From: an uncultured Solimonas sp.
GTDB lineage: Bacteria > Pseudomonadota > Gammaproteobacteria > Nevskiales > Nevskiaceae
Direction of reading: 5' to 3'
DNA length: 56,438 nt
Assembly (NCBI GenBank): GCA_946478985.1
Contig: CAMLDZ010000008.1
Coordinates: 1-56,438 of the forward strand
The translations under genes were made by a program, and so were the position numbers. Positions 33,536-37,575 of this stretch are shown here, in pieces. The notes beneath the pieces are model-generated. The model was given only the letters and a program-made list of their open reading frames with translations, ran no database searches and was not told where the DNA came from. Each line of letters starts with the position of its first letter. Position 1 is the stretch's first letter.

Positions 33536-34657
33536 ATGCGTCGCGAATCCAAGCCCGATCACGACCCGAGCGGCGGTGGCCGGGCGCCGCCGCAGCCGCG
33601 CAAAGGCCGCGGTGCGGTGTCCAATTTCGAAGGCCGCTTCGAGACCGCCACGCGCGAAGCCAGTGATGACGGCTGGGATCTCGGCGACGAGCCGCTGCCG
33701 CCGCTGCGTACCACGGTGCTGCCGGAGCAGGCCAAGTCGATCATCTCGCGCAACCAGTCTCCGGACATTCCGTTCGAGCAATCCGTCAATCCTTATCGCG
33801 GTTGCGAGCACGGCTGCGTGTACTGCTACGCGCGGCCCAGCCACGCCTATCTGAACCTGTCGCCGGGACTCGACTTCGAGACCCGGCTGTTCTTCAAACC
33901 GGACGCGGCAGCCCTGCTCGACGCTGAATTGCGCAGACCTGGCTACCGCTGCTCGCCGATCAACCTGGGGGCCAATACCGATCCCTACCAGCCGATCGAA
34001 CGCCAGCTGCGGGTCACGCGGCAGATCATCGAGACGCTGCAGCGGTTCTCGCATCCGCTGACCATCGTCACCAAGGGTGCGGCCCTGGTCCTGCGCGATC
34101 TGGATCTGCTGCGCGAGCTGGCGCAGCGGCAGCTGGTGGCAGTGACGATCTCGCTGACCACGCTGGATGACGCACTCAAGCGCACCCTTGAGCCTCGCGC
34201 CGCCTCGCCGGGCGCGCGGCTGCGCGCCATGCGCATGCTGGCCGACGCCGGCGTGCCGGTCGGCGTACTGGTGGCGCCCGTCATCCCCTTCGTCACCGAC
34301 GCCGAACTCGAGCGTCTGTTGCAGGCCGCCGCTGACGCCGGCGCAACGACCGCGCACTACGTCATGCTGCGGCTGCCGCACGAGGTTTCGCCACTGTTCC
34401 GAGAATGGCTGGACGTGCACTTGCCGCTGAAGGCCGGGCATGTGATGAGCCTGATCCAGCAGATGCGGGGCGGCAAGGATTACGACGCCGAATGGGGCAA
34501 GCGGCAGCGCGGCGAGGGCGAGTACGCCGCGCTGATCGCGCGGCGTTTTGCCCTGGCCTGCCGCCGCCTCGGCCTCGATGCGCGCGACACCCGGCCGCTG
34601 GACTGCAGCGCCTTTGCGCCGCCGCCCGCGGCCGGCGATCAGCTGAGCCTGCTCTAG
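33536..34657 (+). CDS. PA0069-type radical SAM protein
   Basis: A 373-residue radical SAM protein of the SPL-like PA0069 group. Cys90, Cys94 and Cys97 form the CxxxCxxC cluster motif in YRGCEHGCVYCYARPSHAY. Family traits are NLGANTDPYQPIERQLRVTR and the C-terminal KAGHVMSLIQQMRGGKDY. The reaction is not known; related spore photoproduct lyase repairs DNA but needs spores. It starts 4 bases after the regulator, so the two form an operon. Its stop shares the palindrome CTAG with the stop of the convergent DAHP synthase gene. Confidence 0.85.
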   Translation: MRRESKPDHDPSGGGRAPPQPRKGRGAVSNFEGRFETATREASDDGWDLGDEPLPPLRTTVLPEQAKSIISRNQSPDIPFEQSVNPYRGCEHGCVYCYARPSHAYLNLSPGLDFETRLFFKPDAAALLDAELRRPGYRCSPINLGANTDPYQPIERQLRVTRQIIETLQRFSHPLTIVTKGAALVLRDLDLLRELAQRQLVAVTISLTTLDDALKRTLEPRAASPGARLRAMRMLADAGVPVGVLVAPVIPFVTDAELERLLQAAADAGATTAHYVMLRLPHEVSPLFREWLDVHLPLKAGHVMSLIQQMRGGKDYDAEWGKRQRGEGEYAALIARRFALACRRLGLDARDTRPLDCSAFAPPPAAGDQLSLL

Positions 34658-35955
34658 GCTGCCAGCGCCGCCACCGGCGCCCGCATCGCCTCGGCCGCCA
34701 GGCTGGCCAGCTGCACTGCCTGCAGCGCGTTGAGGCGCGGGTCGCACTGCGTGTGGTAGCGCAGGCCCAGGTCGGGCTCGGCCAGGGCCTGTGCGCCGCC
34801 GATACACTCGGTGACGTCCTTGCCGGTCATCTCCAGGTGCAGGCCGCCGGCATGACTGCCTTCGGCACGATGGATCGCGAAGAAGCTCCGCATTTCATCG
34901 GCCACCGCGTCGAACGGCCGCGTCTTGTAGCGGCCGGCGCTGACGGTGTTGCCGTGCATGGGGTCGCAGGACCAGATCACCGGCCGGCCCTCGCGCGCGA
35001 CGGCGCGGATCAGCGCCGGCAGTGCGGCGTCGAGTTTGCCGGCGCCCATGCGGACGATCAGCGTGATGCGGCCCGGCTCGCGCTGCGGGTCGAGGCGGTC
35101 GAGCAGGCGCAGCAGCGCATCGGCGTCCAGCGAGGGCCCGCACTTGAGGCCGAGCGGATTGGCGATGCCGCGGCAGAACTCGACGTGCGCGCCGTCAAGC
35201 TGGCGCGTGCGATCGCCGATCCAGACCATGTGCGCCGAGCCGGCGTACCAGCGCCGGTCGCTCTCGTCCTGATGGGTCAGCGCGGTTTCGTACGGCAGCA
35301 GCAGTGCTTCGTGGCTGGTGTAGACCGGCTGGGCGCCGCCGGCCGGCATCGCGGCGGCGTCGATCGCGACGCCGTGCGCCTGCAGCTCGGCGACGAACCG
35401 CCGATGACGCAGCGCGATCGCCTCGGCACTGCTGAAGCCGGTCTGCTGCAGCGCACGCAGCAGGTTCAGGGTTAGGGCCGACTGGCGGTAGGCCTGCAGC
35501 ATCCGCTGCGGGTCCGGCACCCGGCTGGCAGCGTCGAAGGCAGCGCCGTTGACGATATCGCCGCGATAGCTCGGCAGCTCGATGCCGTCGATCCGTTCCG
35601 TCGGCGAGGAGCGTGGCTTGGCGAACTGGCCAGCGATGCGGCCGACGCTGACGACCGGCTGCTGCTGGCCGAGCAACAGCGCCATTTGCAGCAGGGTCTG
35701 CGTGGTATCGCGGACGGTGCGGGCGTGGAATTCGCTGAACGACTCGGCGCAGTCGCCGCCCTGCAGGAGGAAGGCCTCGCCGGCGGCGACCCGGGCCAGC
35801 TGTGCCTGCAGCGCGCGGACCTCAGGGGCGAGCACCAGCGGTGGCAGTTGCCGGAGCTGCGCGAGCGCGGCCGCGTGGGCAGCGGCGTCCGGGTAGGCGG
35901 GCGCCTGCTGGACCGGATGGGCGGTCCAGCTGAGCGGATTCCAGATCGAACTCAT
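34654..35955 (-). CDS. 3-deoxy-7-phosphoheptulonate synthase, class II
   Basis: First enzyme of the shikimate pathway, joining phosphoenolpyruvate and erythrose 4-phosphate. The plant-like class II motifs are present: LLQGGDCAESF with metal ligand Cys69, YRGDIVNG, CDPMHGNT with the metal His, GLHLEMTGKDVTEC with the Glu and YHTQCDPRLN with the Asp. Length 433 residues, starting MSSIWNPLSW. It is a single gene whose 5' leader carries an aromatic leader peptide and hairpins (36093-36208) and a second short frame overlapping its start. It is related to phzC and to the aroF/aroG function; no symbol is firm. Confidence 0.94.
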   Translation of the reverse strand: MSSIWNPLSWTAHPVQQAPAYPDAAAHAAALAQLRQLPPLVLAPEVRALQAQLARVAAGEAFLLQGGDCAESFSEFHARTVRDTTQTLLQMALLLGQQQPVVSVGRIAGQFAKPRSSPTERIDGIELPSYRGDIVNGAAFDAASRVPDPQRMLQAYRQSALTLNLLRALQQTGFSSAEAIALRHRRFVAELQAHGVAIDAAAMPAGGAQPVYTSHEALLLPYETALTHQDESDRRWYAGSAHMVWIGDRTRQLDGAHVEFCRGIANPLGLKCGPSLDADALLRLLDRLDPQREPGRITLIVRMGAGKLDAALPALIRAVAREGRPVIWSCDPMHGNTVSAGRYKTRPFDAVADEMRSFFAIHRAEGSHAGGLHLEMTGKDVTECIGGAQALAEPDLGLRYHTQCDPRLNALQAVQLASLAAEAMRAPVAALAA

Positions 35956-36014
35956 CGCCGCGTCCCCGGATGCGGGGCGTCGAGGGCGCCGGTGTCGTCA
36001 TTGCAAATGAACAT
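35952..36014 (-). CDS. Possible second upstream frame coupled to DAHP synthase
   Basis: A 20-codon frame (starting Met-Phe-Ile-Cys-Asn-Asp-Asp) with a GGAG seven bases before its ATG. Its TGA overlaps the DAHP synthase ATG as ATGA. It lies downstream of the attenuator hairpin and within the same leader RNA, just after a small hairpin TCTCCG/CGGAGA (36020-36034). It has no run of aromatic codons. It could couple translation, or be chance. Confidence 0.3.
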   Translation of the reverse strand: MFICNDDTGALDAPHPGTRR

Positions 36015-36092
36015 CGCCAATCTCCGTTACGGAGAAGCCGCGCTTGGCGGGAGGCTGTCGTTCTCAGGAAAACCGCGGGACCAGAAACACGA

Positions 36093-36114
36093 AAGCCGCC
36101 TGACAAGGCGGCTT
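36093..36114 (-). terminator. Terminator-like hairpin of the aromatic leader (attenuator)
   Basis: On the minus strand AAGCCGCCT pairs perfectly with AGGCGGCTT around a four-base loop (+ arms 36093-36101 and 36106-36114). It is followed by an imperfect U tract (UCGUGUUUC). It starts 20 bases after the leader peptide stop. Its 5' arm can instead pair with 36139-36143, the competing antiterminator. Confidence 0.65.
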
Positions 36115-36133
36115 CGGTTGAACAGCAAAACCT

Positions 36134-36208
36134 TCAGTCCGCCAGCGTCGTATACGGGCGGTACCAAAATCGTGCGAGCAGGGCGGCCAAGGCCGGTGCG
36201 TTCTTCAT
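36134..36208 (-). CDS. Aromatic amino acid leader peptide for DAHP synthase
   Basis: A 24-codon frame beginning ATG AAG AAC and ending TGA. It contains the consecutive codons CGA TTT TGG TAC CGC CCG TAT, giving Arg-Phe-Trp-Tyr-Arg-Pro-Tyr at residues 13-19, all three aromatic amino acids within six codons. It lies 180 bases before the DAHP synthase start. Just behind the aromatic codons, 36157-36161 can pair with 36139-36143 (hairpin 1:2). The latter can pair with 36107-36111 (2:3, helped by GGTT/AACC), and 36106-36114 with 36093-36101 (3:4). The TGA sits directly after region 2. This is the layout of the trp operon leader. AGG lies about 10 bases before the ATG. The function is inferred from this structure alone. 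Confidence 0.7.
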   Translation of the reverse strand: MKNAPALAALLARFWYRPYTTLAD

Positions 36209-36216
36209 GAGGGCGT

Positions 36217-36245
36217 AGCCTAAAGAGCGATCTTGCGCATTGCAA
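36217..36245 (-). promoter_or_regulatory. Candidate promoter for the aromatic leader
   Basis: Minus strand: TTGCAA (36245-36240), 17 bases, TAGGCT (36222-36217). If used, the transcript would start at or just before the leader peptide ATG at 36208, leaving almost no 5' untranslated region, which weakens the case. Its -35 lies inside the inverted repeat 36238-36263. Confidence 0.3.
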
Positions 36246-36432: not shown

Positions 36433-37575
36433 ATGACTGACTTCAAACCGGCCTTGCTTGCGCTTGCCGATGGCTCCATTTTCAAAGGCGTTTCCATCGG
36501 CAGCGATGGGCAGACGGTCGGTGAAGTGGTTTTCAACACCGCGATGACCGGCTATCAGGAGATCCTCACCGATCCCTCCTACCGCGAACAGATCGTCACG
36601 CTGACCTACCCGCATATCGGCAATGTCGGCACCAATGCCGAAGACGCCGAATCCGGCCGCGTCCACATTGCCGGCCTGGTGCTGCGCGAAGTGCCGCGCG
36701 CGCATTCGAACTTCCGCTCGACGCAGGATTTCCGCGAGTACCTCAAGGCCAACAAGACGGTGGCGATCGCCGGTATCGATACGCGCCGGCTGACGCGCCT
36801 CCTGCGCGACAAGGGTGCGCAGAACGGCTGCATCGTCGCCGGCGGACGCATCAGCGAGAAGAAGGCGCTCGACACAGCGCGTGGCTATCCGGGCCTCAAG
36901 GGCATGGATCTGGCCAAGGTCGTCAGCACCGACAAGACCTACAGCTGGACGCGCGGCTCGTGGACGCTGGAGACCAACCGCGAGACCGATCACGCGGCCG
37001 GTCCGTTCAAGTACCACGTGGTCGCCTACGACTTCGGTGTGAAGTCGAACATCCTGCGCATGCTCACCGACCGTGGCTGCCGCGTGACGGTGGTGCCGGC
37101 GCAGACGCCGGCGGCGGATGTCATCAAGCTCAAGCCCGACGGCGTGATGCTGACCAACGGCCCCGGCGATCCGGAACCGTGCAGCTACGCGATCGAGGCG
37201 GCGCGCAAGTTCCTGGCGCGCAAGACGCCGCTGTTCGGCATTTGCCTCGGCCATCAGATTCTCGGTCTGGCGCTCGGCGCCAAGACGCTGAAGATGAAGC
37301 TTGGCCATCACGGCGCCAACCATCCGGTGCAGGATCTGGAAACCGGCCGGGTGATCATCACCAGTCAGAACCATGGTTTTGCGGTGGACGAGGCGACGCT
37401 GCCGGCCAATGTCGTCGCCACGCACCGCTCGCTGTTCGATGGCTCCAACCAGGGCCTGCGCGTGACCGACGCGCCGGCCTTCAGTTTCCAGGGCCATCCG
37501 GAAGCCAGCCCCGGCCCGCACGATGTCGGCGAGCTGTTCGACCGCTTCGTGCGGCGGATGGCCGAGGCATCCTGA
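36433..37575 (+). CDS. carA: Carbamoyl-phosphate synthase small subunit
   Basis: Glutaminase subunit that supplies ammonia to CarB for carbamoyl phosphate, used in arginine and pyrimidine synthesis. The class I amidotransferase nucleophile is Cys271 in [15 protein letters not shown], with the later His-Glu pair in [13 protein letters not shown]. The N-terminal region ([16 protein letters not shown] and [12 protein letters not shown]) is conserved. It is 380 residues long, starting at ATG 36433. It has its own promoter and a hairpin in its leader. carB follows after 145 bases. Confidence 0.97.

Follow-up and report, generated by a model that had tools for sequence, protein, structure and literature searches.

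The question raised by this locus is how the gene for a class II DAHP synthase in an uncultured Solimonas sp. might be tied to the supply of the amino acids made by its pathway. In the window (the whole 56,438-nucleotide stretch of DNA analysed here) a sequence-only reading had described a trp-type ribosome-stalling attenuator on the minus strand upstream of this gene, and the retention of its aromatic codons and stems in distant relatives supports that description. We consider it very likely that the element, placed before a class II DAHP synthase, attenuates transcription through a translating ribosome, in the manner of the trp/phe leaders; as this enzyme carries out the first step of aromatic synthesis, the fit of the target is counted in favour of an attenuator. 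The coordinates of the 24-codon leader with its Arg-Phe-Trp-Tyr-Arg-Pro-Tyr (36208-36134) check out in the sequence, as do two competing pairings, of CCGCC (36157-36161) with GGCGG (36139-36143) and of the same GGCGG with CCGCC (36107-36111). The terminator lies where it had been placed, with a stem of 10 pairs (36106-36115 with 36092-36101) rather than the 9 bp first given, and its U tract is indeed imperfect, being interrupted (UUUCGUGUUUC). The stop codon follows region 2 closely, as described, with a gap of 2 bases in the window and the same order in all nine elements known to us from the screens below (Table 1).

Table 1. Positions in the window of the leader features and of the gene that follows them.
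Feature	Position	Strand	Basis or remark
Promoter-like site, TTGCAA-17-TAGGCT	36217..36245	-	-10 end 8 nt 5' of leader AUG; candidate by consensus match
Leader peptide frame MKNAPALAALLARFWYRPYTTLAD, 24 codons + UGA	36134..36208	-	AUG 36208, UGA 36136-36134; sequence and relatives
Arg-Phe-Trp-Tyr-Arg-Pro-Tyr, leader codons 13-19	36172-36152	-	
Presumed control codons CGA UUU UGG UAC (Arg-Phe-Trp-Tyr)	36161..36172	-	same in window and 7/8 relatives
Region 1, core CCGCC 36161-36157, able to pair with region 2	36157..36169	-	
Region 2, GGCGG, 2 bases 5' of stop codon; partner is region 1 or region 3	36139..36143	-	
Possible inner antiterminator helix, GGUU 36132-36129 with AACC 36119-36116	36116..36132	-	weak; 154/500 spacer shuffles equal
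Region 3, CCGCC; possible partner is region 2 in the antiterminator, region 4 in the terminator	36107..36111	-	
Terminator-like hairpin GAAGCCGCCU-UGUC-AGGCGGCUUU	36092..36115	-	terminator scan, folding, comparison
Interrupted U tract 3' of hairpin (CGUGUUUCU)	36083..36091	-	interruption seen in 9/9 elements
Second short ORF MFICNDDTGALDAPHPGTRR, ATGA overlap with DAHP synthase start	35952..36014	-	
Class II DAHP synthase, 433 aa	34654..35955	-	PF01474

The assignment of the downstream gene to class II DAHP synthases holds (PF01474, E 2e-173), and its score against TIGR01358 (574 bits, under the 614.7 cutoff) suggests that the enzyme is a divergent member of that family. Besides P0001 (99% identical), its nearest matches are Hydrocarboniphaga proteins (66%), a protein of a Solimonas bin (64%) and further ones at up to 69%. 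The carA gene diverges from the leader and DAHP synthase, starting at 36433, and so no recognised gene ends just 5' of the hairpin; CarA is 82-89% identical to named Solimonas proteins among the matches listed. By these two proteins the window belongs to a Solimonas-like gammaproteobacterium. A mechanical frame of 170 codons (36539-36027, minus strand) spans the hairpin region. At positions 34654-34657 the DAHP synthase gene overlaps, by the four bases at its end, with the end of a radical SAM gene that converges on it from the plus strand (33536-34657).

Taken by themselves, the statistics of the window for this element are mixed and only suggestive. A terminator scan found one terminator, where 0.6 were expected per shuffle. 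Folding the RNA, which the sequence-only reading had proposed as a check, bore out the leader as a whole (36085-36212, z -2.46, with 4/200 shuffles equally good) and the terminator segment (36092-36133, z -3.18, with 0/200 shuffles as good), but not the segments holding the 1:2 pairing, which folded about as well as their shuffles (36102-36164, z -0.75; 36112-36164, z -0.20). Comparison across genomes was what separated the element from chance. Upstream DNA from 276 class II DAHP synthase loci gave, with the window, 277 regions (274 distinct sequences, some of the regions being shortened by contig ends), and, after the orientation of each locus had been set by a conserved protein motif, these were screened for short frames that contain an Arg-Phe/Tyr-Trp/Tyr type motif and have a hairpin after them. 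There were 11 matches on the forward strand (the window, L031 and its duplicate L187, L188, L189, L190, L191, L194, L245, L260 and L019) compared to none on the reverse strand; they comprise nine distinct elements, one duplicate locus (L187 being the same place as L031) and L019, a match of this relaxed screen which was judged to be due to chance. A strict screen for leader and hairpin gave 10 forward and 2 reverse matches in 217 regions, and 2 and 1 respectively in 60 more; L003 and L095, among its 12 matches, were dissimilar to the others and were also judged to be chance.

When a covariance model was trained on the eight relatives, leaving the window out, it found the element in the window at 36214-36080 with 52.5 bits and E 2.7e-14. 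The hairpin read on its reverse strand came next (E 0.017), followed by a stretch rich in GC (E 0.1), all of these E-values being rough. A reading in which a chance ORF happens to precede an unrelated terminator could draw on the near-chance yield of the terminator scan in the window and on a same-strand upstream frame that ends nearby at L031; with no reverse-strand motif match in 277 regions, and with the window recovered by a model that had not seen it, we find this reading hardly credible. The screen and the leave-window-out model, rather than the window alone, confirm from sequence comparison that the element is real and beyond chance. A model built from all nine sequences, which its nine sources match by construction, found no additional full element over L001-L276; its best other match, L090 (E 4.6e-4), was rejected as a hairpin 3' of the DAHP synthase stop codon, and L043 was set aside as it has a Tyr-Phe-Trp frame in a region where a similar hairpin was not seen.

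All eight relatives come from one family sample, centred on the L031 genome, a metagenome bin named Acetobacteraceae (alphaproteobacterial), and so the comparison set consists of distant relatives only, eight alphaproteobacterial genomes being set against a gammaproteobacterial window. By these genome assignments, the nine elements span two bacterial classes. A class II match was present in 110/119 genomes of that family sample, and the element in 8 of the 90 upstream regions read (from 119 listed places); it is missing from most of the class II loci read. In searches aimed at Nevskiales, the order to which the window belongs, nothing close to it was found in the phylum sample (a DAHP synthase match in 210/398 genomes, best 62% identity) or in the class sample (7/369 genomes at E 1e-140, best 59% identity). 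Order searches around G048, G436, G519 and G378 gave 0/4, 0/3, 0/11 and 49/164 respectively (best 60%), and in a plasmid collection all 106 of 106 matching records were below 60%.

The alignment of upstream regions that had been suggested as a check on the sequence-only reading did reveal a conserved aromatic-rich leader peptide in these eight distant relatives. The leaders end in RFWYRWYNPAV (L188, L191), RFWYRWYYTPAV (L189), RFWYRRYNPAV (L190), RFWYRWYRPAA (L194), RFWYRWYTPAA (L245), RFWYRRYFPAA (L260) and RFYRRWLYTPVA (L031), so that RFWYR(W/R)Y is found in 7/8 relatives, RFYRRWLY in L031, and consecutive Phe-Trp-Tyr in 8/9 elements. Because the relatives were chosen by an RF(W/Y)-type motif, their agreement in RF(W/Y) is partly by choice; the remaining peptide and the RNA lie outside that choice. 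The RFWYR codons show 12 synonymous and 0 non-synonymous pairwise differences (eight sequences, with the deviating L031 excluded). CGATTTT is invariant in 9/9 elements and CGATTTTGGTACCG in 8/9, and AAGCCGCC, GGCGGCTTT and a U tract with a (C/U)G interruption are present in 9/9. Four neighbouring genes of the window seldom use the codons CGA and UUU (CGA occurs once, and UUU 7 times compared to 69 for UUC); the presence of these rare codons in the leader may serve to slow the ribosome, or may be a consequence of the pairing. The strong conservation within the RNA could also suit a ligand-binding RNA or an attenuator worked by an RNA-binding protein, but the invariant columns sit mostly in peptide codons and pairing arms, and an Rfam scan of the window gave only two tRNAs and no family at gathering score over the leader element, so we regard such a reading as very improbable.

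The locus has, as leader-peptide attenuators do, a short leader ORF with codons for the end products of the pathway and, by sequence, an intrinsic terminator 5' of the structural gene, with its interrupted U tract. In the alignment consensus the 1:2 pairing is a 12-pair hairpin in which the Phe-Trp-Tyr codons pair with the end of the leader frame, from its last codons to its stop. The terminator has 8 invariant pairs; six extra long-range pairs drawn by RNAalifold (columns 40-45 with 134-139) were excluded from the counted structure. Standard pairs filled 98.1% of cells for 1:2, 100% for 3:4 and 98.1% for 2:3. Sliding the partners brought the first set (1:2 and terminator) down to 28-59% and 2:3 down to 24-61%, but a +3 shift of the latter still gave 92.1% of 38 cells. 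The compensatory base changes for which the stems were to be searched did not appear: no pairing has a two-sided change, and covariation among the nine elements was no higher than in shuffled controls. The test has little power here, as each arm has two partners and also encodes protein, and covariation adds nothing to the support for the structure. The inner antiterminator helix was drawn in most sequences, with 16 to 305 of 500 spacer shuffles being as good.

Folding with a ribosome in place, assumed to shield 13 bases counted from where the A-site codon begins, gave a predicted switch. When the ribosome was set on the Phe codon, with RNA made up to the 3' arm, region 3 lay on region 2 with 5/5 bases in 9/9 sequences; one codon past Phe, the 2:3 pairing formed in 8/9 (the exception being L245), and at the stop codon the terminator folded in 9/9. 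In these computed folds the pairings 1:2, 2:3 and 3:4 are mutually exclusive and stalling frees region 2. With no ribosome and RNA ending before the 3' arm, 1:2 was folded only in the window and L190 (2/9) and 2:3 in the other 7/9, which counts against a simple picture of the untranslated leader. The full-length fold with a stalled ribosome still contained the terminator in 8/9, which means that switching would have to depend on kinetics.

The mechanism that we infer from this anatomy and its conservation would begin with RNA polymerase starting at or near the leader AUG. A shortage of Phe-, Trp- or Tyr-tRNA would make the ribosome stall at codons 14-16, after the rare Arg codon, masking region 1 and leaving region 2 free to pair with region 3, so that the terminator would form too late and DAHP synthase would be transcribed; where the aromatic tRNAs are charged, the ribosome would reach the stop codon and mask region 2, so that regions 3 and 4 would pair and transcription would end. 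All three aromatic amino acids would presumably be sensed. In a narrower version, compatible with this attenuator, only one or two amino acids (for example Trp or Phe) would act and the other codons would be passengers. It agrees with the computed stall at Tyr19 of the window, which places only 3/5 region-3 bases on region 2, and with the quoted account of the AroR leader of C. glutamicum (Phe-Tyr-Phe), where Tyr availability is without effect despite the leader Tyr codon (PMC11802643); set against these are the consecutive Phe-Trp-Tyr in 8/9 elements and the service of DAHP synthase to all three end products, and we judge this version possible, though on the unlikely side.

The control might instead take another route through the leader, by Rho-dependent termination, polarity or coupling via the second short ORF, with the hairpin as a constant partial terminator. 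The interrupted U tract of all nine elements would suit this, as would the Shine-Dalgarno-like sequence before the second ORF in 7/8 relatives, but it leaves unaccounted for the constancy in 9/9 of the region order and of a stop codon just past region 2, which makes it improbable. The (C/U)G-broken U tract in all nine elements may also point to a terminator that is deliberately weak. On the attenuator reading it is very probable that this bacterium turns up the first enzyme of aromatic synthesis when aromatic amino acids are short, and the same element precedes class II genes in distant bacteria. Where the DAHP synthase is of class II, entry to the shikimate pathway could in this way be set by all three aromatic end products together, via charged tRNA. 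The conserved RNA provides a profile usable for searching other genomes.

Transcription starting downstream of 36208 had been named as an outcome that would speak against the attenuator. A promoter-like site does lie just 5' of 36208, with 17/1000 shuffles as good, but it is not listed at 36217..36245 by a stricter consensus promoter scan of the window. In all nine elements a TTG hexamer is separated by 17-18 bases from a hexamer resembling a -10 box, which ends 6-8 nt 5' of a leader AUG, a spacing that is partly by construction, as the scan was limited to spacers of 16-18 and to -10 hexamers ending 5-9 nt 5' of the AUG, with shuffles under the same limits. At most 28/1000 shuffles were as good in seven elements, compared to 233 (L190) and 282 (L191) of 1000; where there were two candidate AUGs (L031 and L260) these figures are for the better one, the other giving 581 and 994 of 1000 respectively. 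If the site is real, the leader mRNA would be nearly without a 5' untranslated part, and would then resemble the leaderless leader peptides of Streptomyces lividans as described in excerpts of PMC8079986.

The E. coli trp and pheA leaders share with the window element the logic of regions 1-4 and stalling at cognate codons; unlike it, they each read one amino acid, control branch enzymes rather than the shared first step and have an uninterrupted U tract. The AroF of C. glutamicum is probably a class I enzyme, unlike the class II enzyme of the window. Its gene is among the closest known parallels, as aroR-aroF is described in the quoted parts of PMC4046766 and PMC11802643 as a DAHP synthase gene under ribosome-mediated attenuation with an aromatic (Phe-Tyr-Phe) leader peptide; it differs, by that description, in belonging to an actinobacterium and in a quoted motif without a Trp codon. 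The Acholeplasma uORFC-13-1 motif, a predicted attenuator before the DAHP synthase gene aroF, likewise consists, in the quoted part of PMC8632094, of an upstream ORF (by prediction) that contains Phe, a terminator and a possible promoter just 5'. As described there, it is confined to Acholeplasma and environmental sequences, with at least one Phe quoted and no Trp-Tyr. The suggestion that an attenuator of this class may be new fails for DAHP synthase genes in general and may hold for the class II enzyme, as neither a class II DAHP synthase attenuator nor a Phe-Trp-Tyr leader was reported in the open literature searched (a scope outside which the surveys of Panina 2001 and Vitreschak 2004 fall). 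The combination of three consecutive aromatic codons, a class II enzyme and two bacterial classes seems to be undescribed.

A second short ORF lies between the terminator and the enzyme. In 7/8 relatives (L031, L188, L189, L190, L191, L194 and L245) a frame with DFDV(L/I/V)TGP, preceded by the Shine-Dalgarno-like sequence, has its start 72-83 bases from where the terminator 3' arm begins; the motif was not found in L260. Where the start of the enzyme had been located, the short frame ended within the enzyme in L031, L190 and the window and just before it in L245. The eight-codon stretch shows 69 synonymous compared to 14 non-synonymous codon differences in 168 comparisons, and this predominance of synonymous changes suggests that the second ORF of the relatives is probably translated as protein. 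The window peptide (MFICNDDTGALDAPHPGTRR) occupies the same place and is only loosely alike, enzymes of the Hydrocarboniphaga type have FNLDHDVITGDS in frame and close to the N-terminus, and the peptides tested against Pfam and NCBIfam matched no family. The annotated N-terminus of Hydrocarboniphaga effusa P0010 (MFNESRLRTGGFRVS) reads like a translated terminator, which suggests that its start site has been annotated too far upstream; it is the one hint of the element from nearer relatives of the window.

In a DAHP synthase tree (68 chosen rows, midpoint roots, without L278) the window groups with Nevskiales-type proteins (100/100), and the attenuated copies L187-L191, five in number, share a single clade (100/99) separate from the ordinary enzyme of the family; L194 stands alone, and the G1000 copy (L277, with element L260) falls within the ordinary clade. 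These scattered positions indicate that the element is on several enzyme lineages, and so is either old with losses or has moved. Of the 8 genomes with the element, 6 have a further class II gene that lacks it (L217, L218, L222, L223, L264 and L268, of which L217 is 408 bases only), suggesting a basal and an inducible enzyme. More speculatively, a travelling module for aromatic supply, consisting of a leaderless Phe-Trp-Tyr attenuator, a DFDV(L/I/V)TGP microprotein and a starvation-induced class II DAHP synthase, might be shared by Nevskiales and Acetobacteraceae on more than one enzyme lineage; we hold this to be rather doubtful, but if it were true the microprotein, which in Hydrocarboniphaga shares the reading frame of the enzyme, would act on that enzyme.

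Two minor observations concern the loci of these samples. A HAD-type phosphatase-like frame lies 3' of DAHP synthase in 3/6 attenuated loci (L187, L188 and L191) compared to 0/24 others of the same family, as counted by a motif match within the fetched flank. The class II DAHP synthase match at L169 (G378:C1:595319-596662) has one TGA inside an open frame.
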